A stretch of 46,408 nucleotides of DNA from an uncultured Lachnospiraceae bacterium (GTDB lineage: Bacteria; Bacillota; Clostridia; Lachnospirales; Lachnospiraceae): contig CAMOZY010000013.1 of NCBI GenBank assembly GCA_946631295.1, positions 1-46,408 on the forward strand, written 5' to 3'. Both the position numbers and the translations under genes were made by a program. How positions within the stretch are numbered: the first letter of the stretch is position 1; each line of letters begins with the position of its first letter. The notes beneath the pieces are model-generated. The model had not been told where the DNA came from and searched no databases. It saw only the letters and a program-made list of their open reading frames with translations. Below, one piece after another: positions 953 to 30,985 of the stretch.

Positions 953-1002
953 TTGCAATACCTGCAATCATGGTCTATAATGCCAAGTTAGGTAACGCTA
1001 AC
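953..1002 (+). promoter_or_regulatory. promoter with GTTAG-N6-CTAAC operator (site 1)
   Basis: The -35 is TTGCAA (953-958), then 17 bp, then a perfect -10 TATAAT (976-981). The palindrome GTTAGGTAACGCTAAC lies at 987-1002, five bases after the -10, so it covers the likely transcription start. This position fits repression. The downstream operon is methyltransferase, ATC-hydrolase-like protein and TetR regulator, so the TetR may control its own promoter here. Confidence 0.8.
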
Positions 1003-1071
1003 CCGATAACGCTCATATTAGATATAAAAGGTTTGTTGTTCTGAAATATTAAAGCATTGGAGATTTATGAT

Positions 1072-1911
1072 ATGCAGAAATACCATATCGAAAAAAATAC
1101 AGTTCAGGAAACGCTGATCATCCCTCTTTATGGAAGGAAGGTATGTTCAGACAGATTTCCCCGTTTATTTAATGATCCGGAAGCTGAACGCATCTGCGGT
1201 ATGCTGGATTATGATTTTGAGGAAAAGGGAAAAAGGATGGAGTCCGGAGTTGGACTCTTTGGTGCTCTTGAGGTAGCACAACGTCAGTATGATATAGCCT
1301 GTGAGGTTAAGGAATATCTCAGGGCCCATCCTAATGCTGCTGTAGTGAATCTTGGATGCGGACTGGATGACACTGTCCGGAAATGCGATAACGGCACCTG
1401 CAGGGGATACAATATAGATATGCCTGATGTAATAAAGGTTCGTAATGAATTATTGCCGGCCGGCGAAAGAGAGTATAACCTTGCATATGATCTCAATGAT
1501 GACAGTTGGATGGATGAGATAGAAGCAGATGATGGTGTTATTCTTTTCGCAACTGGCGTGTTCTATTATTTCAAAACGGAAGATGTAAGGATCCTGTTTG
1601 ATAAGATGGCATCTCGCTTTTCCGGAGGAACGATAGTATTTGACGCATGTAACCGGAGTGGTGCGAAGATGATGACAAAAACATGGCTTAAAGAGGCAGG
1701 TATAAGCGATGTTCAGGCATTCTTTTCAATTGAAAATGTGCATGAACTCGACACATGGAGCAGTGGATTCTCAAGCGTTTCAGCCAGGAGTTATATGCGT
1801 GGATACAGAGATATCTATAAAGAGGTAGGACTGCTTCATAAGTTCATGATAAAGTTCTGTGACAGTCTGGTGAATATGATCATAGTAAAGATCAGTTTCA
1901 AACGTGGATGA
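1072..1911 (+). CDS. class I SAM-dependent methyltransferase, PPM/TcmP-like
   Basis: The product is 279 residues long. The SAM-binding loop VNLGCGLDD (about residues 92-100) is followed by an acidic strand end, YNIDMPDVIKVR. This arrangement is typical of the leucine-carboxyl / TcmP-type O-methyltransferase superfamily, which methylates carboxylates or small molecules. The substrate cannot be told from sequence. I chose the ATG at 1072 because GGAG at 1059-1062 lies nine bases before it; an in-frame TTG at 1057 overlaps that Shine-Dalgarno site and is unlikely. It is the first gene after operator site 1, and the next gene starts 17 bases after its stop, so the two are co-transcribed. Confidence 0.75.
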   Translation: MQKYHIEKNTVQETLIIPLYGRKVCSDRFPRLFNDPEAERICGMLDYDFEEKGKRMESGVGLFGALEVAQRQYDIACEVKEYLRAHPNAAVVNLGCGLDDTVRKCDNGTCRGYNIDMPDVIKVRNELLPAGEREYNLAYDLNDDSWMDEIEADDGVILFATGVFYYFKTEDVRILFDKMASRFSGGTIVFDACNRSGAKMMTKTWLKEAGISDVQAFFSIENVHELDTWSSGFSSVSARSYMRGYRDIYKEVGLLHKFMIKFCDSLVNMIIVKISFKRG

Positions 1912-1927
1912 TAAGGAGATGATCGCG

Positions 1928-2578
1928 ATGAATTATAAGGGTATGCCAGCCGCAATGTGGATAATGTATAAGAAATCGTTCAGAGACCATCTTGTCACGG
2001 ATATGGGATTTGATGAATCTGCAGCTGTCAGAATAACACAAAAGGCTAAGCCTAAATACAGGGAGATAATTGAAAAACTGCCGGAATTCGAAGAAGGAGA
2101 CAGATTTAAGACCAATATCGTTAACTGTGCTCTGCTTGTTGCGTTTCTTCTAAGTATGGACAGAAGACCAACTGTGGAGGAACTTACAGTATTCTATGAA
2201 AATGCAATGACAATGCCCATGACAAAGATGTTCTGCAGAAAGGCCGGTAAGATCAAGTTTACTGATAAGGATATAGAGGGACAGAAAGCTACGGCAGCTC
2301 TGCGTGCAGGTGATCGTAATCCCTATTCATGGACAATGGATTATCTGCCTTATAAAGATGGAAGCGGATATGAAGCGAGATTCCATACCTGTGGTATCTG
2401 TACACTTATGGGAGAATACGGATTCTTTGATCTGGTTCCTGCCATGTGTCATCTTGACTATACAATGAGTGAACTTGGTGGAGCTTCGGTATTTGTACGA
2501 GAGTACACATTAGCCGGAGGAGGACCATACTGTGACTGTGGATATAAGAAGAAAAAAAGGATTGACTTCGAAAAATAA
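1928..2578 (+). CDS. L-2-amino-thiazoline-4-carboxylic acid hydrolase-like protein
   Basis: The product has 216 residues. The C-terminal half carries the pattern of the ATC-hydrolase family as I remember it (Pfam PF14196): a strand with cysteines, FHTCGICTL (about residues 157-165), then PAMCHLDYTMSE, and a final glycine-rich GGGPYCDCGYKK. Named members open the thiazoline ring of ATC, but most family members have no tested function, so the reaction here is not established. The ATG at 1928 is preceded by AAGGAG (1913-1918) at nine bases; the GTG at 1904 overlaps the upstream gene and has no such site. A second, diverged member is at 21226-21924. Confidence 0.6.
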   Translation: MNYKGMPAAMWIMYKKSFRDHLVTDMGFDESAAVRITQKAKPKYREIIEKLPEFEEGDRFKTNIVNCALLVAFLLSMDRRPTVEELTVFYENAMTMPMTKMFCRKAGKIKFTDKDIEGQKATAALRAGDRNPYSWTMDYLPYKDGSGYEARFHTCGICTLMGEYGFFDLVPAMCHLDYTMSELGGASVFVREYTLAGGGPYCDCGYKKKKRIDFEK

Positions 2579-2630
2579 ATATAGTAATCTTTGATAGCTA
2601 ACATTGATAACTTATATGGAGGCATAGATA

Positions 2631-3248
2631 ATGCCAAGAGATAAGTCATTAAGCCATGAGAAAGTAAAGATTGCTATCAGAGAAGAATTTCTTGAAAAAG
2701 GCTACGAAGGGGCTTCAATAAGAAGTATCGGAGCCAGAGCCGGAATGACATCTGCGGGACTGTACAGACATTATCCGGATAAGGAAGCGATGTTTAATGC
2801 TCTTGTAGAACCATTAGTTAACAGGATCAGTACGTGGACCAAAAGGCATATCGGCAGAAAGGATCAGCTTCTTGATAACGTGACCGGTGGTGAGGACCTG
2901 TTCGGTGAGACGTTTGTTGATCTTATAAGGGATGTAATCCTGCCTAACCGTGATGAATTTAGATTGCTGATGAATGCTTCAGCCGGTACGAAGTATGAGA
3001 ACTTCATTCATGATTTTGTGATAGATAATCAGAAGTCATTTCTTAATGCAATCCGCTATATGAGGAAAAACGGATATCCGGCAATGGATATCAGCGAGGA
3101 GGAATTACATATGCTGCTCTCAGCATATATCACAGCATGTTTCGAAACCATCGTTCATGATTACGATGATGAAAAAATAGAAAAATACCTTAATACGGTA
3201 CAGGAGTTCTTTATGCCGGGGTGGATGAAGATAATGGGAGTTAAGTAG
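2631..3248 (+). CDS. TetR/AcrR-family transcriptional regulator 1
   Basis: The protein has 205 residues, the usual TetR length. The N-terminal helix-turn-helix (about residues 10-55) includes GYEGASIRSIGARAGMTS and the recognition helix with GLYRHYPDKEAMF. The remaining residues form the variable ligand-binding domain. It contains the string GTKYENFIHDF, which recurs nearly unchanged in the second TetR (GTAYENFGHDF), so the two are paralogues. GGAGG (2618-2622) precedes the ATG. It is the third gene of the operon behind operator site 1 and lies just upstream of an ABC pair with the same operator, so it is a candidate (unproven) for the regulator of the whole GTTAG-N6-CTAAC set. Confidence 0.9.
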   Translation: MPRDKSLSHEKVKIAIREEFLEKGYEGASIRSIGARAGMTSAGLYRHYPDKEAMFNALVEPLVNRISTWTKRHIGRKDQLLDNVTGGEDLFGETFVDLIRDVILPNRDEFRLLMNASAGTKYENFIHDFVIDNQKSFLNAIRYMRKNGYPAMDISEEELHMLLSAYITACFETIVHDYDDEKIEKYLNTVQEFFMPGWMKIMGVK

Positions 3249-3251
3249 AAA

Positions 3252-3272
3252 AGAGCCGAAAGGCTCTTTTTT
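3252..3272 (+). terminator. rho-independent terminator after TetR 1
   Basis: Six-bp stem AGAGCC/GGCTCT with a GAAA tetraloop (3252-3267), followed at once by seven T residues. It begins three bases after the TetR stop. Confidence 0.9.
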
Positions 3273-3277
3273 ATTGT

Positions 3278-3311
3278 GTTAGTTATCAATATTGGGTTAG
3301 CGATAACTAAC
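3278..3311 (+). promoter_or_regulatory. GTTAG-N6-CTAAC operator (site 2) with a degenerate upstream copy
   Basis: A perfect arm pair GTTAGCGATAACTAAC lies at 3296-3311, about 30 bases before the first ABC gene. Eighteen bases upstream, GTTAGTTATC (3278-3287) repeats the reverse complement of one half of the same site without the matching second half. No convincing -35/-10 pair is visible here; CAATAT at 3287-3292 could serve as a weak -10. Confidence 0.7.
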
Positions 3312-3341
3312 GCAAAAGATATATAAGGAGGAGTGAAAAAA

Positions 3342-5105
3342 TTGGGAAAGACAGAAAAATATGATCACATGAAACTGATCAGACAGTATGCGGGAGGGCA
3401 CAGGAATCTTATAACCCTGGGCAGATTACTTGCAGCAGTAAGTGCAGTGCTTACCTTAATTCCATACTACGAACTATGGAAGGTCATAAGGACAGCGGTT
3501 AATGGAGAGGAACTTGATGATATCAAGGGGTATGCATGGTCTGCTGTGGCCATGATAGTTGGAGCCCTGCTCATATACATTGCAGCGCTTTTATGTACTC
3601 ATATAGCTGCATTCCGTGTGCAGGCCAATATGAGAAGTTCTCTGATGAGAAGGATCATCACACTTCCGCTCGGAGTATTTGACGAGGATGGAACCGGTAA
3701 GATAAGAAGGATCGTCAGTGACTCCACCGCGGCAACTGAGACCTATATAGCACATACTCTTGCGGATAAAACAGTTGCAGCAATCACACCTGTTGGATTA
3801 CTAGTGCTTGTATTTGCATTTAACTGGAAAATTGGTCTGATATGCATGATTCCAGCTGTTATCGGATTTGCCTGCATGATGTCCATGATGGGTAAAAATA
3901 TGCAGGAGAAGATGAGGGAGTATCAGAATGCTCTTGAGACGATGAACAGCGAAGCTACCGAATACGTCAGGGGTGTTCCTGTGGTTAAGACTTTCGGACA
4001 GACCATCCATTCATTTAAGAGATTTAAAGCATGTATTGACGGTTACGGAAAGTGGACTACAGATTATACACTGATGCTCAGACTTCCGATGACGGGATTT
4101 ATGACCTGTATAAATGCTATATTTGCATTTATCGTTATCGCAGCTTATGTGATACCCGGTAATGGTATATCTAATGCTGACATACTCAATGTGATGTATT
4201 ACATCATAATAACACCACTCATTACGATTGCACTCACGAAGATTGCTTATTCCGGTGAGGCCGAGATGAATCTTATCGATGCATTAAAGCGTGTCGACAG
4301 GATCATGGAAATGGAACCTCTTAAGGATGGAGCAGCAAGCAATAAACCTGCAGATCATGGCATCGTACTTAAGAATGTTACATACAGATATGAAGGAGCC
4401 TTACGTGATGCGGTAAGTGATGTATCGATAGATATATGCCCTGGTGAACATGTTGCACTGGTCGGTCCCTCCGGTTCAGGTAAGACCACACTGGCTGAAC
4501 TGATGGTGAGATTCTTTGATGTCAGCTCCGGTGAGATATTGATCGGAGGCGTAAATGTTAAGGATATACCTTCATCTGAACTTATGAAGTATGTATCATT
4601 TGTTTTTCAGGACAGCAGACTCATCAAGAAATCAATTCTTGAAAATGTCCGCATGTCCAAACCCGGTGCAAGCGAAGAGGAAGTGATGGATGCACTTCGT
4701 AAAGCACAGTGCATGGATATCATTGATAAGCTTCCGAATGGAATACATACGGTTATCGGAGAAAAGGGAACTTATCTGTCCGGAGGAGAGCAGCAGAGGA
4801 TAACCATTGCGAGAGCAGTTCTTAAGGATGCTCCAATACTTATACTTGACGAAGCAACAGCATTTGCTGATCCTGATAATGAAACTAAAGTTCAGGCTGC
4901 TTTTGAAGAATTATCCAGGGACAAGACACTCATAATGATCGCTCACAGGCTGAGTACTGTTATGAATGCTGACAGGATCTTTGTTATGGATGACGGAAGA
5001 TGTGTACAGTCCGGAACACATGATGAACTGATGACTCATGGAGGCTTGTATAAAGACATGTTTGATGAATATACAAGATCGATCGAGTGGAAGGTAGGTG
5101 CCTGA
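3342..5105 (+). CDS. ABC exporter-type transporter, fused TM-ATPase subunit, pair 1a
   Basis: The product is 587 residues: an N-terminal six-helix transmembrane domain (about 25-310) and a C-terminal ATPase. Walker A is GPSGSGKTT (375-383), the signature LSGGEQQR (479-486), Walker B ILILDE (499-504), and the switch histidine is in IAHRLS. The D-loop region reads DEATAFADPD. The GTG at 3333 directly abuts AAGGAGGA and cannot be used efficiently, so I take the in-frame TTG at 3342, ten bases after AGGAGG. The stop is two bases before the start of the partner gene, so the two half-transporters probably form a heterodimer. The cargo is unknown; such pairs export drugs, lipids or peptides, and some (YbtPQ/IrtAB type) handle siderophores. 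Confidence 0.85.
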   Translation: MGKTEKYDHMKLIRQYAGGHRNLITLGRLLAAVSAVLTLIPYYELWKVIRTAVNGEELDDIKGYAWSAVAMIVGALLIYIAALLCTHIAAFRVQANMRSSLMRRIITLPLGVFDEDGTGKIRRIVSDSTAATETYIAHTLADKTVAAITPVGLLVLVFAFNWKIGLICMIPAVIGFACMMSMMGKNMQEKMREYQNALETMNSEATEYVRGVPVVKTFGQTIHSFKRFKACIDGYGKWTTDYTLMLRLPMTGFMTCINAIFAFIVIAAYVIPGNGISNADILNVMYYIIITPLITIALTKIAYSGEAEMNLIDALKRVDRIMEMEPLKDGAASNKPADHGIVLKNVTYRYEGALRDAVSDVSIDICPGEHVALVGPSGSGKTTLAELMVRFFDVSSGEILIGGVNVKDIPSSELMKYVSFVFQDSRLIKKSILENVRMSKPGASEEEVMDALRKAQCMDIIDKLPNGIHTVIGEKGTYLSGGEQQRITIARAVLKDAPILILDEATAFADPDNETKVQAAFEELSRDKTLIMIAHRLSTVMNADRIFVMDDGRCVQSGTHDELMTHGGLYKDMFDEYTRSIEWKVGA

Positions 5106-5107
5106 AG

Positions 5108-6841
5108 ATGATAGAAAGATTACAGCATAAATATGCCCTTTCAAGACAGGGTGCAGTAGATATGGTCAAAGCATGCATATGCGTTCTTGTGGCGAATATC
5201 GTGCTTATGATGCCGGCAGGAATACTTTATACCCTGATAAACGATATGTTAAATGAAAATCTGAATAAAGACAGGATTCCGTTTTACGTAATAGCTTCGG
5301 TTATCATAATAATCCTGGTTGCGGTAACCAATTTCATACAGTACAATGCAACATTCCTTACAACCTACAGAGAGAGCGGTGTCCGCAGAACTACCATTGC
5401 AGAGAAACTCAGAAAACTTCCGCTTTCATACTTCGGTAAGAAGAATCTGGCTGATCTTACAACCAATATTATGGGTGACTGTGCAATGGTTGAAACTGCA
5501 TCCAGTCACTGGATTCCCGAGCTTATAGGTGCTCTCGGATCGGTAAGCCTGGTTGGCATAAGTCTTTTCTTCTTCTTTGACTGGAGAATGGTTCTTGCAA
5601 GCTTCTGGGTTATCCCTGTAGCTTTCATAATAGTCACAACATGTGCAGGTGCTGAGAGAAGAGCAGTCAGAAAAAACCAGGCCGTTAAGATGGAGCTTTC
5701 TGATGGAATTCAGGAATGTCTGGAATCAATCAGAGACCTCAGGGCAAATAATGCCGAAGACGGTTACATGACAGAACTTGACGGAAAGATCAAGAAAGTC
5801 GAAAAAATGGCTCTTTTCACCGAACTTAAGATGGCGGTATATGTCAATTCCGCAGCTATTATTTTGAAACTTGGTATTGGCACAACTGCTGTTGTCGGTG
5901 GTGCGCTGTTTGCGTCAGGGGATATTGATATTCTTACATTCTTTATGTTCCTGATGCTGGTATCGAGACTTTATTCTCCCATGGAAATCTCGCTTCAGAA
6001 CTTTGCAGCGATAATAGCAACAGGTATTCAGTGCGAGAGACTTGATGAAGTATTGTCACATGATATACAGACAGGTTCGGAGCAGATGAGCAACACCGGA
6101 TATGACATAGTGTTTGATCATGTCGGTTTCAAATATGCCGATGATACCGATGTTCTTAAGGATGTAAGCTTTACCGCAAAACAGGGTGAAGTAACCGCAC
6201 TGATCGGGCCTTCAGGCGGTGGTAAGACTACGATCTCAAGACTTGCCGCAAGATTCTGGGATGTAAATGAAGGTAAGATAACTCTCGGTGGAGAGGATAT
6301 CTCCGGAATAGATCCCGAAACGCTTTTGAAGAATTATTCAATCGTATTCCAGGATGTCACTCTTTTCAACAATTCCGTTATGGAAAATATAAGGATAGGA
6401 AAAAGCGGCGCTACAGATGAGGAAGTCATTGCTGCAGCAAAGCTTGCCAACTGTGATGATTTCGTCAATCTGCTTCCTGATGGGTACAATACAACTATAG
6501 GAGAGAACGGAAGTGAGCTGTCAGGTGGTGAGAGACAGAGAATATCCATTGCAAGAGCGTTTCTTAAGGATGCACCTGTCGTACTCCTTGATGAAGCAAC
6601 AGCATCTCTTGATGCCGAAAATGAGACGGCTATACAGGGAGCTCTGTCAAGACTCATTAAGGATAAGACTGTACTTATCATAGCGCACAGAATGAGGACC
6701 ATCGCAAATGCTGATAAGATAGTTGTTCTTAAGGATGGCGTGGTTGCGGAACAGGGAAGCCCGGAATTCCTGTCCGGATTTGACAGCTTCTACAGTCGTA
6801 TGACAGCTCAGCAGCTAATCTCACAGAATTGGAAGATGTGA
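5108..6841 (+). CDS. ABC exporter-type transporter, fused TM-ATPase subunit, pair 1b
   Basis: The product is 577 residues with six membrane helices followed by an ATPase domain. Walker A is GPSGGGKTT (367-375), the signature LSGGERQR (471-478), Walker B VVLLDE with DEATASLDAE after it, and the H-loop is IAHRMR. I prefer the ATG at 5108 over the upstream in-frame GTG at 5087, which lies inside the previous gene. GGTAGG stands about ten bases before it. It is the second half of the heterodimer encoded with the gene ending at 5105. A terminator follows at 6870. The same layout (TetR, ABC, ABC) recurs at 7017-11179. Confidence 0.85.
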   Translation: MIERLQHKYALSRQGAVDMVKACICVLVANIVLMMPAGILYTLINDMLNENLNKDRIPFYVIASVIIIILVAVTNFIQYNATFLTTYRESGVRRTTIAEKLRKLPLSYFGKKNLADLTTNIMGDCAMVETASSHWIPELIGALGSVSLVGISLFFFFDWRMVLASFWVIPVAFIIVTTCAGAERRAVRKNQAVKMELSDGIQECLESIRDLRANNAEDGYMTELDGKIKKVEKMALFTELKMAVYVNSAAIILKLGIGTTAVVGGALFASGDIDILTFFMFLMLVSRLYSPMEISLQNFAAIIATGIQCERLDEVLSHDIQTGSEQMSNTGYDIVFDHVGFKYADDTDVLKDVSFTAKQGEVTALIGPSGGGKTTISRLAARFWDVNEGKITLGGEDISGIDPETLLKNYSIVFQDVTLFNNSVMENIRIGKSGATDEEVIAAAKLANCDDFVNLLPDGYNTTIGENGSELSGGERQRISIARAFLKDAPVVLLDEATASLDAENETAIQGALSRLIKDKTVLIIAHRMRTIANADKIVVLKDGVVAEQGSPEFLSGFDSFYSRMTAQQLISQNWKM

Positions 6842-7016: not shown

Positions 7017-7631
7017 ATGTCCGTAAGAGATACCAGTATAGATCCAAGATTGCTTGACAGTGCCCGAAGTGAATTCATGAAGCTCGGATTTATGAAAGCT
7101 GATCTGAAAACTATCTGTGATAATGCGGGCGTTACAACCGGAGCAGTATATAAAAGATATAAAGGGAAAGAAGAATTATTCTGTGCTGTTGTAAAGGATA
7201 CGGCAGATACCCTGGATGAATTTGTGAAAGTGCGTAACGGTCAGGAACTATCCGTATTGACCGATACGGAAGTGTATGATACATGGATCATGAATGAGAA
7301 GTTCATACTTGATCTGTTCAGGATGCTTTGGAAGGTTAGGAATGATTTTGTGCTTCTTCTGGAAAAATCATCCGGAACAGCTTATGAGAATTTCGGACAT
7401 GACTTTGCACTTCGTATGACCGATGCCTATATGCAGTATTATAACGAGGCAAGAAAACGCGGACTTGCACATGCAGATATTTCAAAAGAAGAAATGCATG
7501 TACTGTGCAGTTCTTTTTGGATGGCTATATATGAACCATTTGTTCATAAGATGTCGTGGAAAGAAATTGAAGAACATAGCAGGGCCATGTGCAGGTTTTA
7601 TGATTGGACGAAAGTGCTTGAAATGAATTAA
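7017..7631 (+). CDS. TetR/AcrR-family transcriptional regulator 2
   Basis: The protein has 204 residues. The N-terminal helix-turn-helix (about residues 8-53) includes FMKADLKTICDNAGVTT and the recognition segment AVYKRYKGKEELF. The ligand domain shares GTAYENFGHDF and DISKEEMHVL with TetR 1, marking the two as paralogues, but the recognition helices differ. The start ATG is preceded by GAGAGGA (7003-7009). Its promoter carries a private inverted repeat (6965-7000). The two ABC genes that follow have an operator of the other type, so which TetR controls them is open. Confidence 0.88.
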   Translation: MSVRDTSIDPRLLDSARSEFMKLGFMKADLKTICDNAGVTTGAVYKRYKGKEELFCAVVKDTADTLDEFVKVRNGQELSVLTDTEVYDTWIMNEKFILDLFRMLWKVRNDFVLLLEKSSGTAYENFGHDFALRMTDAYMQYYNEARKRGLAHADISKEEMHVLCSSFWMAIYEPFVHKMSWKEIEEHSRAMCRFYDWTKVLEMN

Positions 7632-7640
7632 TTGTTTATA

Positions 7641-7690
7641 AGCCGTCTTATGACGGCTATATAAATGGATTAAGGTTAGCATTACCTAAC
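7641..7690 (+). promoter_or_regulatory. hairpin, likely -10, and GTTAG-N6-CTAAC operator (site 3)
   Basis: A seven-bp hairpin (7641-7647 with 7652-7658) follows the TetR 2 stop but has no T-tract, so termination would be weak. TATAAA (7660-7665) is a possible -10; no good -35 is seen. The palindrome GTTAGCATTACCTAAC is at 7675-7690, twenty bases before the ABC start codon, with the Shine-Dalgarno site in between. Confidence 0.7.
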
Positions 7691-7710: not shown

Positions 7711-9444
7711 ATGTTCAAGAGAGTATCCCCGTACATTGGAGAGTACAAAAAGTATACTGTGTGGGCTGTAATATTGATGTCCATAGGTATTATTGCAAAT
7801 GTTACACCTTATTTCTTTATGTATCAGATAATAGCACCGCTCACCCGTGGAGAGCATATTGATACTTCCTATATTTTGTTAAGAGTTGTAGCTGTTGCTG
7901 TATGTGAAATTGTTTTCTCGGTTTCTTATGTACAGGGACTTGAGTTTTCACATATAAGTGCATACAACACCCTCAAGAATCTCAGAATATCGCTTCAGTC
8001 GAAACTTGAGAGGCAGCCTCTTGGTAATATAAGTGAACTTGGCACAGGGCGTATCAAGAAGGTTTTTACTGATGATATTGATCAGGTGGAACTTCTGCTT
8101 GCTCATGCGATTCCGGAGGGTATAGCCAATATTGCTATTCCAATGATCATAATCGTTATGATGTTTGTATTTGATTGGAAACTGGGACTTTTATCTCTGG
8201 TACCGCTTGTTGTGGGGATGTTTGCAATGGGCATGATGATGAAATCAGGACTAGAGAAGATGAATGCCTATTATGAATCCGCTGCAAAGATGAACAATAC
8301 GATAATTGAATACGTTAACGGAATGGAAGTCGTTAAAGTCTTTAATAAAGACGGTGATTCGTACAAGAGATTTGGTGAAAGAGTAAAAGATTACCGTGAT
8401 TTCACTCTTGACTGGTATAAAGTCTGCTGGCCGTGGATGGCAATATATTCAAGTGTTCTTCCATGTCTGGTTCTTCTGATGCTCCCGCTCGGATCTATGA
8501 TGGTCCTTGGTGGAGTTGTCACTTTGGACAGAATGGTGCTTGTATTCTGCATGTCCTTTGCAGTGGGGCCTTCGGTCCTTAAGGCACTTAATTTTGCTGG
8601 AAAATTTCCTCAGCTTGATTATAAGATTGCAGAACTTGAGAAGATGATGGAACATCCGCCACTTAAGGAAGGAGAGTCGGCATTCAAAGGGGATAATCTT
8701 GATGTAGAATTCAGGGATGTTCATTTCGGCTATGATGATGCAGAGGTTCTTCATGGTGTGAATCTGTCATTTAAGCAGGGAACAACTACTGCACTTGTAG
8801 GCGAATCGGGAAGTGGAAAGTCGACACTTGCCAAGCTTTTGGTCCACTATTATGATCTTGATTCCGGAACCATAGCCATAGGTGGGCAGGATATCACAGA
8901 TATGTCTCTTGAAGCACTTAATGATCAGGTGTCATTTGTTTCCCAGGAGCAGTTCCTTTTTAATACAACATTGTATGAAAATATCCTCATCGGAAAGCCG
9001 GATGCTACAAGAGAGGAAGTCCTCGAAGCGGCAAGGAGAGCTCAATGCAATGAATTTATTGCCAGATTCCCGGATGGGCTTGATACACAGGCAGGTGATG
9101 GAGGTAAGCAATTATCCGGTGGCGAACGCCAGAGGATATCACTTGCAAGAGCAATTCTTAAGGACGCACCAATTATAGTGCTTGATGAAGCAACAGCATT
9201 TATGGATCCTGAAAATGAGGAGAAGATGAATGCTGCTCTCGACGAGATTGTAAAGGATAAGACTGTACTTGTTATTGCACACAGGCTTTCCACTATAAAG
9301 AATGCCGATAAGATATGTGTCATGAAGGAAGGTAACTGTATATCAGCTGATACTCATGATAATCTGATCATTTCATGCCCTGAATATAAGAAATTGTGGG
9401 ATGCGTCGGTTTCAGCAAGCACATGGAAAGTGAGGGAGGCTTAA
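7711..9444 (+). CDS. ABC exporter-type transporter, fused TM-ATPase subunit, pair 2a
   Basis: The product is 577 residues with an N-terminal six-helix membrane domain and a C-terminal ATPase. Walker A is GESGSGKST (364-372), the signature LSGGERQR (468-475), Walker B IIVLDE with DEATAFMDPE, and the H-loop IAHRLS. The DEATAF motif in place of DEATA-S/V also marks the first subunit of pair 1, so the pairs keep matching a and b subunit types and probably arose by duplication of a two-gene unit. The ATG follows GGATGGAGG. The second subunit starts four bases after its stop. Substrate unknown. Confidence 0.85.
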   Translation: MFKRVSPYIGEYKKYTVWAVILMSIGIIANVTPYFFMYQIIAPLTRGEHIDTSYILLRVVAVAVCEIVFSVSYVQGLEFSHISAYNTLKNLRISLQSKLERQPLGNISELGTGRIKKVFTDDIDQVELLLAHAIPEGIANIAIPMIIIVMMFVFDWKLGLLSLVPLVVGMFAMGMMMKSGLEKMNAYYESAAKMNNTIIEYVNGMEVVKVFNKDGDSYKRFGERVKDYRDFTLDWYKVCWPWMAIYSSVLPCLVLLMLPLGSMMVLGGVVTLDRMVLVFCMSFAVGPSVLKALNFAGKFPQLDYKIAELEKMMEHPPLKEGESAFKGDNLDVEFRDVHFGYDDAEVLHGVNLSFKQGTTTALVGESGSGKSTLAKLLVHYYDLDSGTIAIGGQDITDMSLEALNDQVSFVSQEQFLFNTTLYENILIGKPDATREEVLEAARRAQCNEFIARFPDGLDTQAGDGGKQLSGGERQRISLARAILKDAPIIVLDEATAFMDPENEEKMNAALDEIVKDKTVLVIAHRLSTIKNADKICVMKEGNCISADTHDNLIISCPEYKKLWDASVSASTWKVREA

Positions 9445-9448
9445 TACA

Positions 9449-11196: not shown

Positions 11197-11248
11197 TTGA
11201 CAATAAAAGTTTGATATAATAATATAATCAAAGTTAGCAAATGCTAAC
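11197..11248 (+). promoter_or_regulatory. promoter with GTTAG-N6-CTAAC operator (site 4) before enolase
   Basis: TTGACA (11197-11202), 17 bp, TAATAT (11220-11225), the same hexamers and spacing as the TetR 2 promoter. The perfect palindrome GTTAGCAAATGCTAAC is at 11233-11248, seven bases after the -10, over the likely start point. This places a glycolytic gene under the same control as the transporters. Confidence 0.8.
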
Positions 11249-11268: not shown

Positions 11269-12661
<1,393 letters not shown>

Positions 12662-16487: not shown

Positions 16488-16540
16488 TTGACATATTAAA
16501 GCGAACACTGTATTCTAACAAATGGTTAGTGATAACTAAC
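16488..16540 (+). promoter_or_regulatory. ZIP-gene promoter with GTTAG-N6-CTAAC operator (site 5)
   Basis: TTGACA (16488-16493), 17 bp, TATTCT (16511-16516). The palindrome GTTAGTGATAACTAAC lies at 16525-16540, eight bases after the -10. Confidence 0.8.
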
Positions 16541-16605: not shown

Positions 16606-16621
16606 GTTAGTGGTGACTAAC
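16606..16621 (+). promoter_or_regulatory. GTTAG-N6-CTAAC operator (site 6), second copy before the ZIP gene
   Basis: GTTAGTGGTGACTAAC, 81 bases downstream of site 5 and 30 before the start codon, hence inside the transcribed leader. With site 5 it brackets the UUCG hairpin. Two sites about eight helical turns apart could allow looping. Confidence 0.75.
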
Positions 16622-22478: not shown

Positions 22479-23180
22479 ATGAAGGCTGAATACGTGAAAC
22501 CGGATTGGGACAGGATAGCACATCTATTTAAACTTGGAATAATAGCTTCTCTTTTAGCACTAGTCGGCGGAGACATGGTCCTTGGATGGGGAACACCTGA
22601 TCCGGCGCTGACAGGGATGGAACAGTATTTTTCCAGATATAATGAGGTTTCGGATTCGAGGATATTCTGGTCTGCTACGTTAGGTATGATAGGAATAACT
22701 ATCGAGACCATGTGTTTCTTTGGAATATACAGACTCATTGCATCCAAATCTCAAAAGTATGCACATGCTTACAGGGCAGGACTTATCGGAATGCTTGTTT
22801 TCGGTCCGTTCTGTCATGTGATGTGTTGTGCCACAATATATCATCATAATGCTGTCGCCAGGATAGATTATTTTCATGCAATAGATGAAGCACTGAAATT
22901 TGCCAAGATGTTTCTTCTTCCTGTCACAAGTATATTTTTTGTGTTTTTTATGGTCATGAATATAGTTCAGATAATGGCCTTTGCAAAGGGAAGGACACCA
23001 TATCCGGGATGGTGCTGGGTTTTTTCGATGCTTGTGGGAATAATCGATATAGTGGTCATGAAACTTGCAGGTGAACATGCATGGGCATATGCGATATCGA
23101 CAGGATGGCTGAGCTTCGGTAGCCTTGTTACATTCACCGGACTGCTTCTGAATATGTCAAAAGCCAGGAAGAATGAATAA
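22479..23180 (+). CDS. multi-pass membrane protein, DUF6796-like (paralogue 1)
   Basis: The product is 233 residues with about six membrane helices. The N-terminal helix ends in GGDMVLGWGTP. The same GD-M/F layout occurs in the proteins at 25915 (GDFMFAATG) and, less well kept, at 30269 (GITDCMLAYT), so I treat the three as a paralogous family. From memory the fold resembles proteins labelled DUF6796; this was not checked. His and Cys residues cluster near the middle (GPFCHVMCCATIYHHN), which is notable among metal-linked genes. Function unknown. It starts 36 bases after the preceding gene and has a fair ribosome site (AAAGGT). Confidence 0.65.
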   Translation: MKAEYVKPDWDRIAHLFKLGIIASLLALVGGDMVLGWGTPDPALTGMEQYFSRYNEVSDSRIFWSATLGMIGITIETMCFFGIYRLIASKSQKYAHAYRAGLIGMLVFGPFCHVMCCATIYHHNAVARIDYFHAIDEALKFAKMFLLPVTSIFFVFFMVMNIVQIMAFAKGRTPYPGWCWVFSMLVGIIDIVVMKLAGEHAWAYAISTGWLSFGSLVTFTGLLLNMSKARKNE

Positions 23181-23185: not shown

Positions 23186-23218
23186 TATAATTTTGCTATT
23201 AGGTTAGCTGATGCTAAT
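23186..23218 (+). promoter_or_regulatory. GTTAG-N6-CTAAT operator (site 7) with possible -10
   Basis: GTTAGCTGATGCTAAT (23203-23218) matches nine of the ten arm positions. TATAAT at 23186-23191 is a possible -10, eleven bases upstream; no good -35 is seen. It stands before the membrane-protein and hydrolase run that begins at 23275. Confidence 0.65.
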
Positions 23219-23274: not shown

Positions 23275-23772
23275 ATGTTTTTAACATTATTTCTCGCAAT
23301 TGTCTTTTGCGTAGCAATCACGCTTATGATGTTCGCAGCAGTTGCTTTTATTCAGGATAAGAAATTCTTTTCTTCTGCACCGAAAGAGGCACAGGAAGCA
23401 CTTATACCAAGGGATAAGGAACTGTTCTATGGTGCAAGATGCATCGGATGGACACTTATGGTTTTCAGTTTTCTTATGATCATCGGTGTTGGAGTGATCT
23501 CCATCTGGGATGGCTTCAGAAGTGAGTTTTCATTTTTGCAGTTCTTTCTTAGGTTTGTGCTGATCTTTACCATATATAAGATCTACGACATGGTCTGCTT
23601 TGACTATTTTCTACTTATGAAGTTTCATTTTTTTCAGTTTTATTTTCCGGAGGTTGAAAGTGTGTATGCGAACAGAAAGTATGGGTACAACATCAAGAGT
23701 CAGCTTCTGAAACTTCTGGTGATATTTCCTGCAGCTTCAGCTCTTGCAGCATGGATTTGTTCACTATTTTAA
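23275..23772 (+). CDS. small membrane protein, PGTE-like family member 2
   Basis: The product is 165 residues with four predicted helices. The segment YDMVCFDYFLLMKFHFFQFYF ending in PEVE corresponds to the D...D...H...PGTE region of its paralogues at 21954 and 23787. No named function is recognised. GGAGGAG precedes the ATG, and the gene is first behind operator site 7. The paralogue at 23787 begins 14 bases after its stop, so the two may act as a pair. Confidence 0.65.
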   Translation: MFLTLFLAIVFCVAITLMMFAAVAFIQDKKFFSSAPKEAQEALIPRDKELFYGARCIGWTLMVFSFLMIIGVGVISIWDGFRSEFSFLQFFLRFVLIFTIYKIYDMVCFDYFLLMKFHFFQFYFPEVESVYANRKYGYNIKSQLLKLLVIFPAASALAAWICSLF

Positions 23773-25914: not shown

Positions 25915-26649
25915 ATGAGTACATATGAAAGAAATAGGATACTACTGATCGCAGGTATTATAGGATGCCTTTTATATGTGATTGGAGATTTTATGTTTGC
26001 CGCAACCGGAAATGGACAGACTACGGAAAGCATAGGTTTCATGGTCCGTATCGCATATCTTGAAATGGGAACCTGGCGAATGTATGCCAGTATTCTCTGT
26101 GGTTTTGTTGGAACATTTCTTTACTACATGGGTTTTCATTGTATGTATGGTCTTTTGAAAAAACATGTTCTGCTACAGGGTGATTCCAGAAATCATATAT
26201 GGGTAAGATTGTTCAGGATTGCCTATATAACAGGCACTGTTTCATGGGCATATGTGCATGCCATTTTTATGACCGTAGCACTGATATTTAAATATGTATA
26301 TCAAACCTATGGTGACATGCAGACTGCGGCAGATATTGCGAACAGAGTCTTCTATGCCAATGCCGCACCTATGATCATTGCCTATGTTTTGTGTGACATC
26401 GGATTGACAGTGATCATGATAACTCTGGTCTGGAAGAGGGTTATACCTCTTAAGAGTACAGCAGCGAGAATCGTGGCTACACTTTGCAATCCTATGATGT
26501 TGCCGGGGGTGATCGGTAATCTGTTCACATTATTCCCATGGCCTGTAAATCAGCTTGATCATGGAACAGAATCCTTTGGACATGCGCTCGTTCTGATACT
26601 TGGTCTGGTCTTACTGAAAGAGATGGGACACACTGGAGAAATTAAATGA
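25915..26649 (+). CDS. multi-pass membrane protein, DUF6796-like (paralogue 2)
   Basis: The product is 244 residues with about six helices. It has IGDFMFAATGNGQ near the N-terminus and GFHCMYGLLKKH after helix 2, matching the layout of the protein at 22479. Function unknown. GAGGT precedes the ATG. Its stop codon overlaps the ATG of a hydrolase remnant (ATGA at 26646), showing that a downstream gene was once translationally coupled to it. Confidence 0.65.
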   Translation: MSTYERNRILLIAGIIGCLLYVIGDFMFAATGNGQTTESIGFMVRIAYLEMGTWRMYASILCGFVGTFLYYMGFHCMYGLLKKHVLLQGDSRNHIWVRLFRIAYITGTVSWAYVHAIFMTVALIFKYVYQTYGDMQTAADIANRVFYANAAPMIIAYVLCDIGLTVIMITLVWKRVIPLKSTAARIVATLCNPMMLPGVIGNLFTLFPWPVNQLDHGTESFGHALVLILGLVLLKEMGHTGEIK

Positions 26650-27071: not shown

Positions 27072-28433
27072 ATGGGATTGATTGAATTATTGCTCCTTGG
27101 GATAGGACTTTCCATGGATGCATTTGCTGTTTCTATATGTAAGGGTATAGAAACAAAAAAGGCTAACTTAAAACAGGTGCTTTTGTGTGGTATATGGTTT
27201 GGTTTCTTTCAGGGACTTATGCCATTTACTGGATATGTTCTTGGATCGAAACTTGAGTTTATAATAAACAAAATAGCACCATGGCTGGCGTTTGTTCTGC
27301 TTTCAATTATCGGTGTAAATATGATAAGGGAAGCGTTTTCCTCGGAGGAAGAGGAGACCAGAGCAGGTTTTGATGTAAGATCCATGTTCATACTTGCGGT
27401 TGCCACATCAATTGATGCACTTGCTGTCGGAATTACTTTTGTGGCGGTTCCCGTGTCTTTGATCGATGCCCCTGAACTGATCAATACTGTTATCGGATGT
27501 CTGATCATCATGGCGACAACATTTGCTTTTTCATGCCTGGGGGTCAAAATAGGCAATGTTTTTGGAACACGATTCAAGTCAGGAGCTGAAGCGGCAGGTG
27601 GATTTGTACTTGTATTCATAGGCCTCAAGATATTATTTGAACATCTCGGACTACTGGAATTTATGGATAATGGAGATGTTCTGTTCGGACTACTTATCCC
27701 TCTGCTCGGGACTGTACTTGGTTCATCACTGGTATTTGTTACTGACAAAAAGATTAAGGATGGTTTTAAGTCAGTTATGATGGGAATGGCCGGTGGTATT
27801 ATGATGGCATGTTCCATGTGGACCCTGTTATATCCGTCAATTCTTCAGGGTAAGGTAACAACAGCTGCTGTCGGATTTATACTGGGTATAGGATTTCAGT
27901 ACATGCTTGATAAGATAGTGCCCCATACGCATGTTTTTATAAATGCTGAGGAAGGTCTTTCCAACAGATTGAAGTATTCATTTAAGGTGATGCTGTCTGA
28001 AGTGATACATCACGTTCCTGAAGGAATGGCAATTGGAATTATGTTTGCCGGGGCTCTTAACAAATCAGATGAAGTATCACTTGCGGCAGCTTTTGCTCTT
28101 ACCATTGGTATTGCTGTTCAGAATATTCCGGAAGCAATCATTGTATCAGCACCTATACGATCAGGTGGCGAGGAAAAAAGCAAGTCATTCCTGATGGGAG
28201 TTGTCTCCGGTATTATTGAACCCTTTATTGGTATTCTGATGTTGATGATAGTGACTGCTTTTCCCGGAATTCTTCTGTTTACAATGTCGCTTGCCGGTGG
28301 TGCAATTGCCTTTTTGGTAATAGAAGAGAACATACCATCGATGAATGCCGGGAAGCATTCTGATAAAGGAACCATATCATTTGCGTTTTTCTTCTGTCTT
28401 ATGATGCTGATCACATTCTCTAATCTTGTATGA
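27072..28433 (+). CDS. MntP manganese exporter fused to a ZIP transporter
   Basis: The product is 453 residues in one unbroken frame. Residues 1 to about 190 are a complete MntP (DUF204) unit: LSMDAFAVSICKGIE with Asp16, and the pseudo-repeat SIDALAVGIT with Asp115, ending at GLKILFEHLGL. Residues from about 203 to 453 are a complete ZIP unit with HHVPEGMA (from His313), QNIPEAI (from Gln350) and SGIIEPF. In the QNIPE motif the usual final Gly is Ala. MntP exports Mn2+; ZIPs usually import divalent metals, though GufA-like ones may differ. The Mn2+ riboswitch upstream suggests an export role. The ZIP part is a paralogue of the protein at 16651. I do not recall this fusion being described. Confidence 0.9.
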   Translation: MGLIELLLLGIGLSMDAFAVSICKGIETKKANLKQVLLCGIWFGFFQGLMPFTGYVLGSKLEFIINKIAPWLAFVLLSIIGVNMIREAFSSEEEETRAGFDVRSMFILAVATSIDALAVGITFVAVPVSLIDAPELINTVIGCLIIMATTFAFSCLGVKIGNVFGTRFKSGAEAAGGFVLVFIGLKILFEHLGLLEFMDNGDVLFGLLIPLLGTVLGSSLVFVTDKKIKDGFKSVMMGMAGGIMMACSMWTLLYPSILQGKVTTAAVGFILGIGFQYMLDKIVPHTHVFINAEEGLSNRLKYSFKVMLSEVIHHVPEGMAIGIMFAGALNKSDEVSLAAAFALTIGIAVQNIPEAIIVSAPIRSGGEEKSKSFLMGVVSGIIEPFIGILMLMIVTAFPGILLFTMSLAGGAIAFLVIEENIPSMNAGKHSDKGTISFAFFFCLMMLITFSNLV

Positions 28434-28487: not shown

Positions 28488-28538
28488 TTGATTATAATAA
28501 ATACAAATGCTAATATATTTCAGTTAGATATCGCTAAC
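28488..28538 (+). promoter_or_regulatory. promoter with GTTAG-N6-CTAAC operator (site 8)
   Basis: TTGATT (28488-28493), 17 bp, TAATAT (28511-28516). The palindrome GTTAGATATCGCTAAC lies at 28523-28538, six bases after the -10. A weak hairpin (CTGCC/GGCAG, about 28450-28467) between the MntP-ZIP stop and this promoter may act as a partial terminator. Confidence 0.78.
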
Positions 28539-28556: not shown

Positions 28557-28588
28557 TTTTTATACTCCGCTTGAATGCGGAGTAAAAT
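28557..28588 (+). other. leader hairpin between two operators (second instance)
   Basis: ACTCCGC (28564-28570) pairs with GCGGAGT (28577-28583) around TTGAAT, flanked by T-rich 5' and A-rich 3' sequence. Core, flanks and position match the hairpin at 16565-16594. Confidence 0.7.
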
Positions 28589-28594
28589 TATGAG

Positions 28595-28615
28595 GTTAGG
28601 TTAGCTGAATCTAAC
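28595..28615 (+). promoter_or_regulatory. GTTAG-N6-CTAAC operator (site 9) with an extra half-site
   Basis: GTTAGCTGAATCTAAC (28600-28615), 77 bases after site 8, preceded directly by another GTTAG (28595-28599). It lies in the leader, 66 bases before the start codon. Confidence 0.75.
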
Positions 28616-28681
28616 CATAAACCATTCGATATCATGATAATTTAATACTGAACATAAATGTTTATAAGGAGGAAATCGGAG

Positions 28682-29305
28682 ATGGGTCTTTTTAAGAATT
28701 TTGTAAGTCAGACAAGAAAGCCTGAAGGTGTACTTGGAAAAATGATGGTAAATGGTATGAACGGTGGGCATGCAAAAATGGCAGACTGGGGAATGTCTCA
28801 TCTTACGATTGTCAGACCTGAACATATAATTGAGCTAGGATGCGGTGGAGGAAGAAATGCCGGAGAATTGCTAAATAAATATCCGAATGCAAAGGTTACT
28901 GCAATTGATTATTCGGAAGTATCGGTTCAAAAGGCAACAGAATACAATTCTGAAGCCATTAAAAGCGGACGGTGTAAAGTGCAGCAGGGTGATGTATCAG
29001 CACTGACACTTCCGAAAGAGAGCTTTGATCTTGCAACTGCGTTTGAAACTATCTATTTTTGGCCCGGACTTGAAAAATGCTTTACTCAGGTTGCCGGAGT
29101 ACTTAAACCCGGCGGAGTATTCATGATTGTCAATGAATCCGACGGAACCGATGAGGCAAGTCTTAAATTTGAACAGATTATCGAAGGTATGAAGTGTCAT
29201 ACCATTAATGAGATTGAGGCAGCTCTTAAGAGCGCAGGTTTTTCTGAAGTTCAGTCAGATCACCATAAGGATAAACCCTGGATTACCGTAATAGCAAAGA
29301 AATAG
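28682..29305 (+). CDS. class I SAM-dependent methyltransferase
   Basis: The product is 207 residues. Motif I is IIELGCGGGRN (about 49-59), the following acidic strand end is VTAIDYSEVSV, the adenine-side motif is QQGDVSALTLP, and post-motif VLKPGGVFMIVNE is typical of the Methyltransf_11/25 group. The first residues (GVLGKMMVNGMNGGHAKMADW) resemble small-molecule or arsenite-like methyltransferases of Clostridia, but no cysteine set for arsenic is present. The substrate is unknown. The ATG at 28682 follows AAGGAGG (28666-28672). An ATG at 28658 lies upstream of that site and is rejected. It is not related to the methyltransferase at 1072 beyond the fold. Confidence 0.82.
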   Translation: MGLFKNFVSQTRKPEGVLGKMMVNGMNGGHAKMADWGMSHLTIVRPEHIIELGCGGGRNAGELLNKYPNAKVTAIDYSEVSVQKATEYNSEAIKSGRCKVQQGDVSALTLPKESFDLATAFETIYFWPGLEKCFTQVAGVLKPGGVFMIVNESDGTDEASLKFEQIIEGMKCHTINEIEAALKSAGFSEVQSDHHKDKPWITVIAKK

Positions 29306-29363
29306 TTGACATGTATTGATGCATGGCCGGTAGTTTTTTTATTTGTAGTGAAAGGGCAAGAGT

Positions 29364-30137
29364 ATGTATATCAGGGAGTATGGAAGAGAAAAGGACAGAG
29401 TATTGCTGTTTTTTCCCGGAAGCTGTGAATCATGGCAGGATCATGCATATGCAGCCGAAGAACTGGCAGAATCTTTTCATGTGCTGCTGGTTGTGCCTGA
29501 TGCTCAGGATCCTGAAGAACACACTGATTTTATATCTGTTGAGAAAACCGTGGACGATGTGTCAGAATGGCTTGGAAAGCATGGGATAAGCAGGTTGGAT
29601 GCACTTTATGGTCTCAGTTATGGCGGCGGTATGGCCACGCGCTTTTTGGTGACTGCGGGTATTCCTGTTAAGAAAGCAATAATAGATGCCGGGACAGCAC
29701 CATATGAGTATCCGAAAATAATCTGTAAACTGCTGTGTGTAAGAGATTTTCTGGTGTTTAAAGCAGGAAGGGCATCGATAGAACTAATGAAAACAGCTTT
29801 TCCACCAGAGCGATTTGCCAGAAATCCTGAAAGAGCAGATGAAGAATATAAAGAGATCAAAGAGTACCTGAAAACCTACAGTAATAAGACAATCTGGAAT
29901 ATATTCTGGTCTGCAAATAACTATGCTGTTCCTCATCCTGCACCAAAGCTTGGTACTGAAATACAATTCTGGCTTGGGACTGAAGAATGGGGATCCAGAT
30001 TCCGTGATCTGAAGTGGTATCAGAAATATCTTCCTCAGATTGAACTTGTAAAGATACCGGATATGATGCACGGAGAATTTGTAATGATGCATCCAGGGGA
30101 GTTCGCCTCAAAGGCATTAGAGTTTTATAACAGGTAG
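29364..30137 (+). CDS. alpha/beta hydrolase
   Basis: The product is 257 residues. FFPGSCESWQDH forms the oxyanion region, the nucleophile elbow is LYGLSYGGGMA with Ser85, and the catalytic histidine is His236 in DMMHGEF. This is the general serine hydrolase set, closest to the proline iminopeptidase / MhpC-like group. The substrate is unknown. AAAGGG precedes the ATG, 58 bases after the methyltransferase, so the two are probably co-transcribed under operators 8 and 9. Its C-terminal region matches the pseudogene at 26646. Confidence 0.78.
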   Translation: MYIREYGREKDRVLLFFPGSCESWQDHAYAAEELAESFHVLLVVPDAQDPEEHTDFISVEKTVDDVSEWLGKHGISRLDALYGLSYGGGMATRFLVTAGIPVKKAIIDAGTAPYEYPKIICKLLCVRDFLVFKAGRASIELMKTAFPPERFARNPERADEEYKEIKEYLKTYSNKTIWNIFWSANNYAVPHPAPKLGTEIQFWLGTEEWGSRFRDLKWYQKYLPQIELVKIPDMMHGEFVMMHPGEFASKALEFYNR

Positions 30138-30268
30138 TGAGTTGTTGTATATAAAGGGATATCCGGACATGCCGAGTTGGTACATAAGGAGCCGAAGAAA
30201 TTAATTATGATAATAAATAAAGCATATGATGGAAATCTGACATAAGAGGATACGGTAGGGGGATGACC

Positions 30269-30877
30269 ATGAAGATCAGTCTTATAATAGCCGCCATAGG
30301 ACATGTAATCTGCGGTATCACGGATTGTATGCTGGCATATACAAAGGATGGAAGATTTGATTTTTCGGATATAAGGGACAATGAGAAGATGCAGAAGACT
30401 TTTTCATCAATGTCCTTAAAGCAGATTGAACTGGCGATGCTCATCGGAGTGGTTGCGCTGTTTATGGCGTGTTTCGGCTACATAGAGATAAGCAGATGGA
30501 TTTGTACGACAAATCCGGCCATCGGAAACATCATGCTCATTGCATCTATGTTCTTTATGGTTTTAATCTCAGCGCATCATGTTCTGTGTGGGGCTGTTGA
30601 GTGGTTTTATGTAAAGCTGGGAAGAACGGATGATGCTCTTAAGGCTGTTACGGATTTCTTCAGGAGTACTATCATTGCAGCGATTGCATATGTGGGACTG
30701 TTGGTATATGCTGTCATGCTGTTTGTTCTTGTGGTAGCCGGAAAGACGGACCTGCCCTGGTGGGCGTGTGTTTTTAATACTTTTCCGGCATTCCTTATAC
30801 TTGCGCCTACTAAAGTTCCGGCAAAAGGAAACATCGCAAATGCTTTTATGTTTTTCGGACTGGCTATTCTGCTTTGA
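30269..30877 (+). CDS. multi-pass membrane protein, DUF6796-like (paralogue 3)
   Basis: The product is 202 residues with about six helices. The N-terminal GHVICGITDCMLAYTKDG corresponds to the GD motif region of the proteins at 22479 and 25915. Function unknown. I use the ATG at 30269, about six bases after AGGGGG; the ATG at 30263 abuts that site. The 131 bases before it hold no clear feature apart from this ribosome site. Confidence 0.6.
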   Translation: MKISLIIAAIGHVICGITDCMLAYTKDGRFDFSDIRDNEKMQKTFSSMSLKQIELAMLIGVVALFMACFGYIEISRWICTTNPAIGNIMLIASMFFMVLISAHHVLCGAVEWFYVKLGRTDDALKAVTDFFRSTIIAAIAYVGLLVYAVMLFVLVVAGKTDLPWWACVFNTFPAFLILAPTKVPAKGNIANAFMFFGLAILL

Positions 30878-30927
30878 TAATGCTGTATCAGTCACTTTTA
30901 CGCGTTTGTTCTGCAAATAAGAATATT

Positions 30928-30985
30928 GTGTTTGATAAACACGATATTGAGTTGTATATTAACGCAATAGTTAGCAGATGCTAAC
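30928..30985 (+). promoter_or_regulatory. orphan promoter with GTTAG-N6-CTAAC operator (site 10)
   Basis: A perfect GTGTTT-GAT-AAACAC palindrome (30928-30942) overlaps a -35, TTGATA (30932-30937). After 17 bp comes TATATT (30955-30960), and the perfect operator GTTAGCAGATGCTAAC follows at 30970-30985. On the plus strand the next start codon (31017) opens a three-codon frame only, and the transcript would then run antisense through mgtE. Either a small or antisense RNA is made, or the gene once served was lost. Confidence 0.65.

Follow-up and report, generated by a model that had tools for sequence, protein, structure and literature searches.

The palindrome GTTAG-N6-CTAAC, which recurs between genes of the window (the whole 46,408-nt stretch of DNA analyzed here), is very probably the operator of a Feo-linked, short two-domain repressor of the DtxR family, predicted from sequence to bind as one dimer per site and probably to sense Fe(II). 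This assignment draws on what the sequences show: the site and its exact spacing, its placement in promoters, the regulator's fold and conserved ligand positions, and the link to feoB and dtxR over many genera.

The window contains nine exact copies and a tenth with one mismatch (T as last base, a 9-of-10 match). A rescan returned all ten coordinates of the preliminary description unchanged. Its estimate of about 0.05 exact matches by chance is replaced by a mean of 0.02 in dinucleotide-preserving shuffles, of which 0/100 reached nine, leaving the observed number far above expectation. When up to two mismatches are allowed, the window has 16 matches against 12.85 by chance, which is no excess; two-mismatch sites were therefore ignored, and only exact and one-mismatch sites are counted. 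The predicted operators and their targets are as follows.

Predicted operator 1, 987-1002: GTTAGGTAACGCTAAC, 5 bases 3′ of TATAAT; heads the 1057-3248 operon
Predicted operator 2, 3296-3311: 5′ of the first ABC half-transporter pair (3333-6841)
Predicted operator 3, 7675-7690: between TetR 2 (7017-7631) and the second ABC pair (7711-11179)
Predicted operator 4, 11233-11248: follows TTGACA-N17-TAATAT; upstream of enolase (11303-12661)
Predicted operator 5, 16525-16540: preceded at 8 bases by TTGACA-N17-TATTCT; lies 5′ of the ZIP transporter (16651-17439)
Predicted operator 6, 16606-16621: also 5′ of the ZIP transporter, as its second site
Predicted operator 7, 23203-23218: the one-mismatch site; upstream of a 165-aa protein (23275-23772) with no Pfam match
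Predicted operator 8, 28523-28538: upstream of the methyltransferase (28658-29305)
Predicted operator 9, 28600-28615: second site upstream of the methyltransferase; an extra GTTAG lies 5 bp upstream
Predicted operator 10, 30970-30985: 9 bases after TTGATA-N17-TATATT; no gene downstream on the + strand
Target, 1057-3248, + strand: operon of an LCM-type methyltransferase, an ATC_hydrolase-like protein and TetR 1
Target, 3333-6841, + strand: ABC exporter-fold pair 1
Target, 7711-11179, + strand: ABC exporter-fold pair 2
Target, 11303-12661, + strand: enolase (NCBIfam eno, 658 bits); no other enolase was found in this genome
Target, 16651-17439, + strand: ZIP-family metal transporter
Target, 28658-30137, + strand: methyltransferase and alpha/beta hydrolase

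For each ABC protein (four in all), the best 25 of about 189 NCBIfam matches are to MsbA, CydCD and similar proteins, all below cut-off, and do not decide for or against these pairs being siderophore importers.

All ten sites lie between genes taken as real, as first described; an 87-codon antisense frame that overlaps the sites at 16525 and 16606 is judged spurious. The preliminary description also placed the palindrome over the start point, just after a -10 box, at sites 1, 4, 5, 8 and 10. This arrangement largely holds, with promoter elements ahead of sites 1, 4, 5 and 10, but the -10 box at site 8 was not picked by the promoter scan. Site 10 is located between the convergent genes DUF6796 (+) and mgtE (-) and so does not stand in front of a gene, which corrects the preliminary description. 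No known RNA family accounts for this orphan site, given that Rfam at gathering thresholds has no match in the window or contigs C47 and C88.

The regulon was initially described as local, which a wider scan does not support. The window's own genome contains 16 exact sites on three contigs, seven of them on two contigs other than the window's, and no exact match to the pattern read backwards. The spacer is six bases in 16 of 18 GTTAG-N0..15-CTAAC pairs; the backward control yields 26 pairs spread over all 16 spacers, so that the evidence for spacing resides in the concentration at six and not in the pair total. Across 24 genomes of the genus there are 172 exact sites (22 for the backward pattern), with sites in 23 of the 24, among others at feoB, dtxR, enolase, flavodoxin and ZIP genes. 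Fifty-five of the 172 lie upstream of a FeoB match (within 900 bp) or a DtxR C-domain match (within 700 bp), where uniform placement predicts 0.18; the genus genomes hold 44 strong FeoB and 35 DtxR C-domain matches.

Among 80 named DtxR loci, an exact or one-mismatch site is present in 50/50 of those divergent from feoB (45 exact) and in 8/26 of those without feoB. An unguided count of 5-mer inverted repeats with spacers of 0-15 ranks GTTAG-N6-CTAAC first (54/80 loci). The sites avoid coding sequence, with fewer than 8 bases inside a frame in 143 of 164 site rows even though frames fill 91% of those loci; the rows include duplicates from the overlapping loci L150 and L151, which were removed for the promoter and second-palindrome counts, and the frame-overlap and second-palindrome counts lack a fetched locus for 10 of the 172 genus sites. 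The -10 element of the best promoter starts 18-27 nt before the palindrome center in 52/128 site/gene pairs, against 10/128 with shuffled flanks. The wider scan thus bears out the expectation of a regulon with promoter-overlapping, repressor-type sites. Flavodoxin and FeoA each account for 6/122 proteins encoded within 200 bp of a site (raw counts; one of 123 frames, window:16363-16626, was left out).

In the window's genome the link to iron uptake is found on C47, where four sites occupy 15239-15352, between feoA-feoB and a divergent dtxR.

feoA, C47:14956-15204, - strand
feoB, C47:12915-14906, - strand
dtxR, C47:15423-15833, divergent from feoA-feoB: short two-domain regulator (122-136 aa)

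The encoded protein comprises a Fe_dep_repress winged helix and a Fe_dep_repr_C dimerization domain (Pfam); neither Pfam matches nor the structure model contain an SH3-like C-terminal domain. MntR D8M is its best PDB match in sequence and fold comparisons alike (TM 0.89 to MntR). The metal-ligand positions His78, Cys100, Glu103 and His104, matched by alignment to what we take to be the DtxR residue numbers, are invariant in 29/29 regulators. A DtxR-type metal sensor encoded elsewhere was the second candidate of the preliminary description, and the sites at feo-dtxR and at all 50 named loci divergent from feoB support it. It had also raised the one-base spacing of the DtxR box as an objection. 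The published 19-bp DtxR box, TTAGGTTAGSCTAACCTAA, is two overlapping TTAG-N6-CTAA words offset by 5 bp, so the half-sites of one dimer pair with the very spacing found here and the objection falls. It is this single-dimer half of the canonical box that the sites contain. A canonical double-dimer box was rejected, as an exact second TTAG-N6-CTAA shifted by 5 bp occurs in 0/162 sites; one half of a second word is present in 5/162. Binding of a half-box by a single dimer has been reported for IdeR by gel shift (PMC8464063).

From the operator's position at ferrous-iron uptake and dtxR promoters, as in a DtxR-type iron regulon, we infer Fe(II)-dependent binding and repression by this predicted DtxR. 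When Fe(II) is sufficient, the two recognition helices of a dimer would bind one palindrome, so that the protein covers the start point just 3′ of the -10 box and blocks RNA polymerase; as iron falls, the repressor would be released and the genes switched on. At the feo-dtxR promoter, tandem copies 30-35 bp apart could hold several dimers on roughly one helix face, adding autoregulation. The ABC pairs, methyltransferases, ZIP transporter, enolase and TetR 1 of the window would all be members of this regulon. In a large group of anaerobes from gut and rumen the palindrome is likely a master iron operator, and it can now be searched for as an iron-regulon marker.

Several observations run against the DtxR reading. 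An exact site is present upstream of 25/44 strong genus FeoB matches but absent from the other 19, two of which are in the window's genome, and from 24/35 genus DtxR matches. Of the genus sites, 117/172 have neither feoB nor dtxR as a neighbor; genes at these sites include ABC exporters and DUF6796, which have no obvious tie to iron. One genome (G017) encodes a DtxR but lacks the site, and four of 40 genomes, the window's included in the 40, have no detected DtxR (G005, G025, G032 and G035) and 1-5 sites each, although two of the four are incomplete (69-72%). The window's genome encodes a second DtxR (P0002), so that which protein binds is judged from position, and two DtxR classes that differ in their recognition helices (KKSSVSVAM and SKPSVSRAM) nevertheless appear to share this operator motif.

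Other readers of the site were weighed. TetR 1 (2631-3248), a product of the first controlled operon, was one of the two initial candidates: its gene sits between sites 1 and 2, and its orthologues in G013, G015, G018 and G019 likewise have a site and an ABC gene as neighbors. However, sites do not track with it. Orthologues of at least 69% identity occur in 5/24 genus genomes against 23/24 for sites, in eight genus genomes that carry sites no TetR 1 match exceeds 60 bits, and feoB-dtxR promoters bear the palindrome across many genera; on this distribution TetR 1 was rejected, and its control of the window sites is very improbable. A Fur-family reader, suggested by Fur-like frames close to sites in nine genomes of the genus (about 1 kb off in two, within about 240 bp in the other seven), is just as hard to sustain, given that G018 (17 sites) and G008 (two sites, at feoB-dtxR) have no Fur match and the single Fur match of the window's genome is on C53, a contig without sites. 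Fur boxes moreover differ in sequence from this palindrome.

A less remote, though still unlikely, alternative leaves the DtxR-family operator unchanged and has the repressor sense manganese, as MntR does. The two-domain architecture with MntR as nearest fold and the presence of ZIP and enolase genes among the targets speak for it, as does Asp in one genus-common DtxR class at the position that we take, following a PDB title, to be MntR Asp8. Iron is favored by the concentration of sites at feoAB, by flavodoxin as a target, and by the feo-linked class, in which Met and Cys occupy the two positions presumed to distinguish iron from manganese sensors, the Cys being invariant in 29/29.

The predicted operator at enolase suggests a coupling between iron supply and a central step of sugar catabolism. 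Of 109 family enolases, an exact operator lies upstream of 20/45 close to the window's and 0/64 others, the two kinds being split at 69% identity, a cut set after seeing the data and checked against a tree; three of the 64 have short upstream DNA (50, 206 and 325 bases). The survey covered 123 places, of which 110 were read (L329 unparsed) and 13 left out (fragments, remote homologues, and G049 at 76%). A second enolase in G056 has two one-mismatch sites. We tentatively propose two Lachnospiraceae enolase lineages, one of them a DtxR-controlled iron-starvation enolase, the only one found in the window's genus, such that lower glycolysis might be iron-gated and dispensable when iron is plentiful. 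The same proposal places a cofactor-dependent phosphoglycerate mutase of some genomes with this enolase. In the window's genome the lower-glycolysis theme is only partial, as no site directly precedes the phosphoglycerate mutase gene on C47, in a check confined to loci fetched for holding sites.

Enolase loss is described in rumen Butyrivibrio and Pseudobutyrivibrio (PMC6912079, PMC7523725), in whose main text a word search finds no word beginning with "iron". Among open-license PMC papers, the titles and abstract openings listed by literature searches describe no DtxR regulon of this family and no iron-regulated enolase; PMC7762939 and PMC7576875, which carry DtxR and Feo terms, are covered at that level. 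If true, iron gating would explain why these rumen relatives can lose enolase altogether, and a known puzzle gains a testable cause.

The regulator shares its two-domain size and fold with MntR of Bacillus, but the feo-linked class has Met and Cys for what we take to be Asp and Glu in MntR, and is linked to feoAB. It resembles the DtxR/IdeR regulons of Actinobacteria in regulator family, in the conserved Cys, Glu and His, and in iron-uptake targets, and one dimer's half of their box is the same TTAG-N6-CTAA. In contrast to DtxR/IdeR, the regulator lacks the SH3-like domain, each site holds one palindrome with the G/C pair at its outer rather than inner edge, and copies are arranged in tandem. 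The IdeR half binding site (PMC8464063) is likewise one dimer on one palindrome; there it concerns a designed probe and one natural site, whereas here it seems to be the rule. The patchy occurrence of enolase among rumen Lachnospiraceae, described in the Butyrivibrio and Pseudobutyrivibrio reports, parallels the situation found here.

The ten positions of GTTAG-N6-CTAAC listed in the preliminary description are correct: nine of these sites are exact and one carries a single mismatch. The mean number of exact sites expected in the window is 0.02 (100 dinucleotide shuffles), and nine was never reached. The genome as a whole (2.54 Mb, 95 contigs) contains 16 exact sites (nine in the window, six on contig C47 and one on contig C88, upstream of a DUF6796 gene) and no match to the reversed pattern. 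With the spacer left free between 0 and 15 bases, 16 of the 18 GTTAG/CTAAC pairs in the genome have a spacer of six; the backward control gives 26 pairs, so the overall pair total is not raised and the excess is confined to spacer six. The palindrome is a real feature, and its spacing is strict. DUF6796 proteins recur within operator-bearing stretches (window 22479–23180, 25915–26649 and 30263–30877; locus L018, 231–1528), and window 27072–28433 encodes a 453-residue protein with an MntP-like manganese exporter half and a ZIP-like half.

Four sites on C47 (locus L016), at 15239, 15273, 15307 and 15337, occupy the gap that separates feoA from a divergent DtxR-family gene:

C47 12915–14906, minus strand: feoB, on the feoA side of the four-site gap
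C47 14956–15204, minus strand: feoA (Pfam FeoA)
C47 15423–15833, plus strand: DtxR-family gene (Fe_dep_repress and Fe_dep_repr_C domains), divergent from feoA and feoB
C47 8078–8548: DtxR-like gene, partner of a second feoB

The ATG at 15465 is a more likely start for the DtxR-family gene than the listed TTG. C47 additionally encodes this second feoB, a heavy-metal P-type ATPase and a phosphoglycerate mutase.

Sites are present in 37 of the 40 genomes compared, a set that counts the genome of the window and in which gaps in MAGs limit the comparison. The 24 genomes of the genus hold 172 exact sites, against 22 for the backward pattern, and 55 of the 172 lie upstream of a strong FeoB or DtxR match (0.18 expected); an exact site is present at 25 of the genus's 44 strong FeoB matches and at 11 of its 35 DtxR matches. 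Within 500 bp upstream of the 30 DtxR loci in the 40 genomes, five have an exact and another eight a one-mismatch site. The loci retrieved around sites cover 162 of the 172 in 164 rows; 143 of these rows are intergenic, though frames cover 91% of those loci. Orthologues of TetR 1 (window 2631–3248), one of the two regulators suggested in the preliminary description, are limited to five of the 24 genus genomes, which argues against TetR 1 as the regulator. A TetR 1–operator–ABC cassette (window 2631–5105; loci L202–L205) is found in five genus genomes including the window's, with TetR 1 at 69% identity or more.

Named genomes were sampled through the best 80 of at least 541 relatives. Most come from rumen and gut MAGs that carry the label Lachnospiraceae; Butyrivibrio, Saccharofermentans, Ruminococcaceae and others are also represented. 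Within this best 80, the 450 bp before dtxR contain an exact site at 54 loci and an exact or one-mismatch site at 60, and GTTAG-N6-CTAAC, at 54 of 80, ranks first among all 5-mer inverted repeats with spacers of 0–15. Where dtxR is divergent from feoB, these counts are 45 and 50 of 50; at loci without feoB they are 7 and 8 of 26, and at the other four, two and two. Three dtxR–operator–feoB arrangements (L253, L271, L281) come from MAGs labelled Treponema or Spirochaetales, reflecting either gene transfer or the assignment of contigs to the wrong bin.

Among solved structures, 1on2 (the D8M variant of Bacillus MntR, per its PDB title) is closest in sequence to the C47 DtxR protein, and it is again the top fold match (TM 0.89) of an AlphaFold2 model with a mean pLDDT of 93. 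His78, Cys100, Glu103 and His104 are invariant in 29 of 29 DtxR-like proteins from the own and related genomes. The feo-linked class combines Met at position 9, aligned with MntR Asp8, with Cys; in another DtxR class that is frequent in the genus, those two places are taken by Asp and Cys. Met plus Cys, which we take to be the iron-type ligands of DtxR, favors Fe(II), and this is probably the metal sensed by the feo-linked protein. Two recognition-helix classes of DtxR appear to have the motif in common. Four genomes (G005, G025, G032, G035) have sites and no detected DtxR. Nine genus genomes (G003:C23, G005:C283, G006:C74, G009:C60, G011:C9, G013:C94, G014:C5, G015:C98, G020:C105) have a Fur-like frame in the vicinity of a site; its product is possibly a second regulator under DtxR.

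The −10 box of the best promoter starts 18–27 nt before the palindrome center in 52 of 128 site/gene pairs, against 10 of 128 with shuffled flanks, so that the site covers the start point, bearing out the overlap first noticed in the window. Such a position would be that of a repressor, and repression is the predicted direction of control. The genes that directly follow genus sites encode 122 proteins, for which the raw family counts are ABC_tran 15, enolase nine and ZIP eight; FeoA, DtxR, DUF6796, flavodoxin, Fer4_12 and His_Phos_1 six each; TetR and M24 peptidase five each. The ABC_tran and TetR counts mean little, as both families are common. Operator 10 lies over a good promoter, TTGATA-N17-TATATT, that has no gene. 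The region (window 30942–31059) is where the convergent genes for DUF6796 and mgtE end; transcription from this promoter would run antisense into mgtE, and a search of the window against Rfam gave no match.

Enolase is found in 11 of the 24 genus genomes (many assemblies are incomplete), one copy each, with an exact operator upstream of nine (exceptions G013 and G022). Other families in the order contribute eight enolases, of which seven can be tested (G028 offers only 82 upstream bases); even when one mismatch is allowed, no site lies upstream of any of the seven. The family survey covered 120 genomes, nearly all of different genera, and upstream DNA was read for 109 of 123 enolase places. 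At 69% identity or more to the window enolase (the first kind), 20 of 45 have an exact operator within approximately 420 bp and 25 lack one; below 69%, none of 64 has one upstream. A tree of 68 enolases has a branch (support 100/92) that parts 41 rows from 27; the 23 operator-bearing rows all belong to the 41, and none to the 27. The family has two enolase lineages, and the operator is confined to that of the window (window 11303–12661; L308–L437). Eight genomes encode both (G042, G066, G067, G077, G121, G141, G151, G157; in G067 and G077 the first-kind gene was assigned by identity alone), with the operator at the first kind in six (exceptions G077 and G151) and at the second in none. In G053, G056 and G106, where the second copy is difficult to assign to a lineage, only the first copy has an exact site; of two first-kind enolases in G048, one has an exact site and the other one-mismatch sites. 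A cofactor-dependent phosphoglycerate mutase has an upstream operator in four genus genomes (G004, G012, G018, G021; L122, L140, L125, L193); among fetched loci, the site is absent at this gene in the window's genome (L016 2211–2957) and G010. Were enolase expressed only under iron shortage, cells would otherwise have to do without it, and its loss in rumen Butyrivibrio and Pseudobutyrivibrio, noted as an oddity in passages of PMC6912079 and PMC7523725, would be easy to understand.

Beyond the ten fixed bases, the 162 genus sites show a clear preference at the next base alone (A or G). Neighboring sites within 110 bp are spaced 30–35 bp, approximately three helical turns, in 29 of 41 pairs. 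A one-base half-site spacing had been held against a DtxR-type reader; this objection falls away, as the published DtxR box, the 19-mer TTAGGTTAGSCTAACCTAA (PMC1382209), includes the word TTAG-N6-CTAA exactly twice, at an offset of five. An exact second word occurs in none of the 162 genus sites, and one half of it in five. The genus sites are hence predicted to be single-dimer sites, comparable to a designed half-box reported to be bound by one dimer with an apparent KD of 78 nM (PMC8464063).
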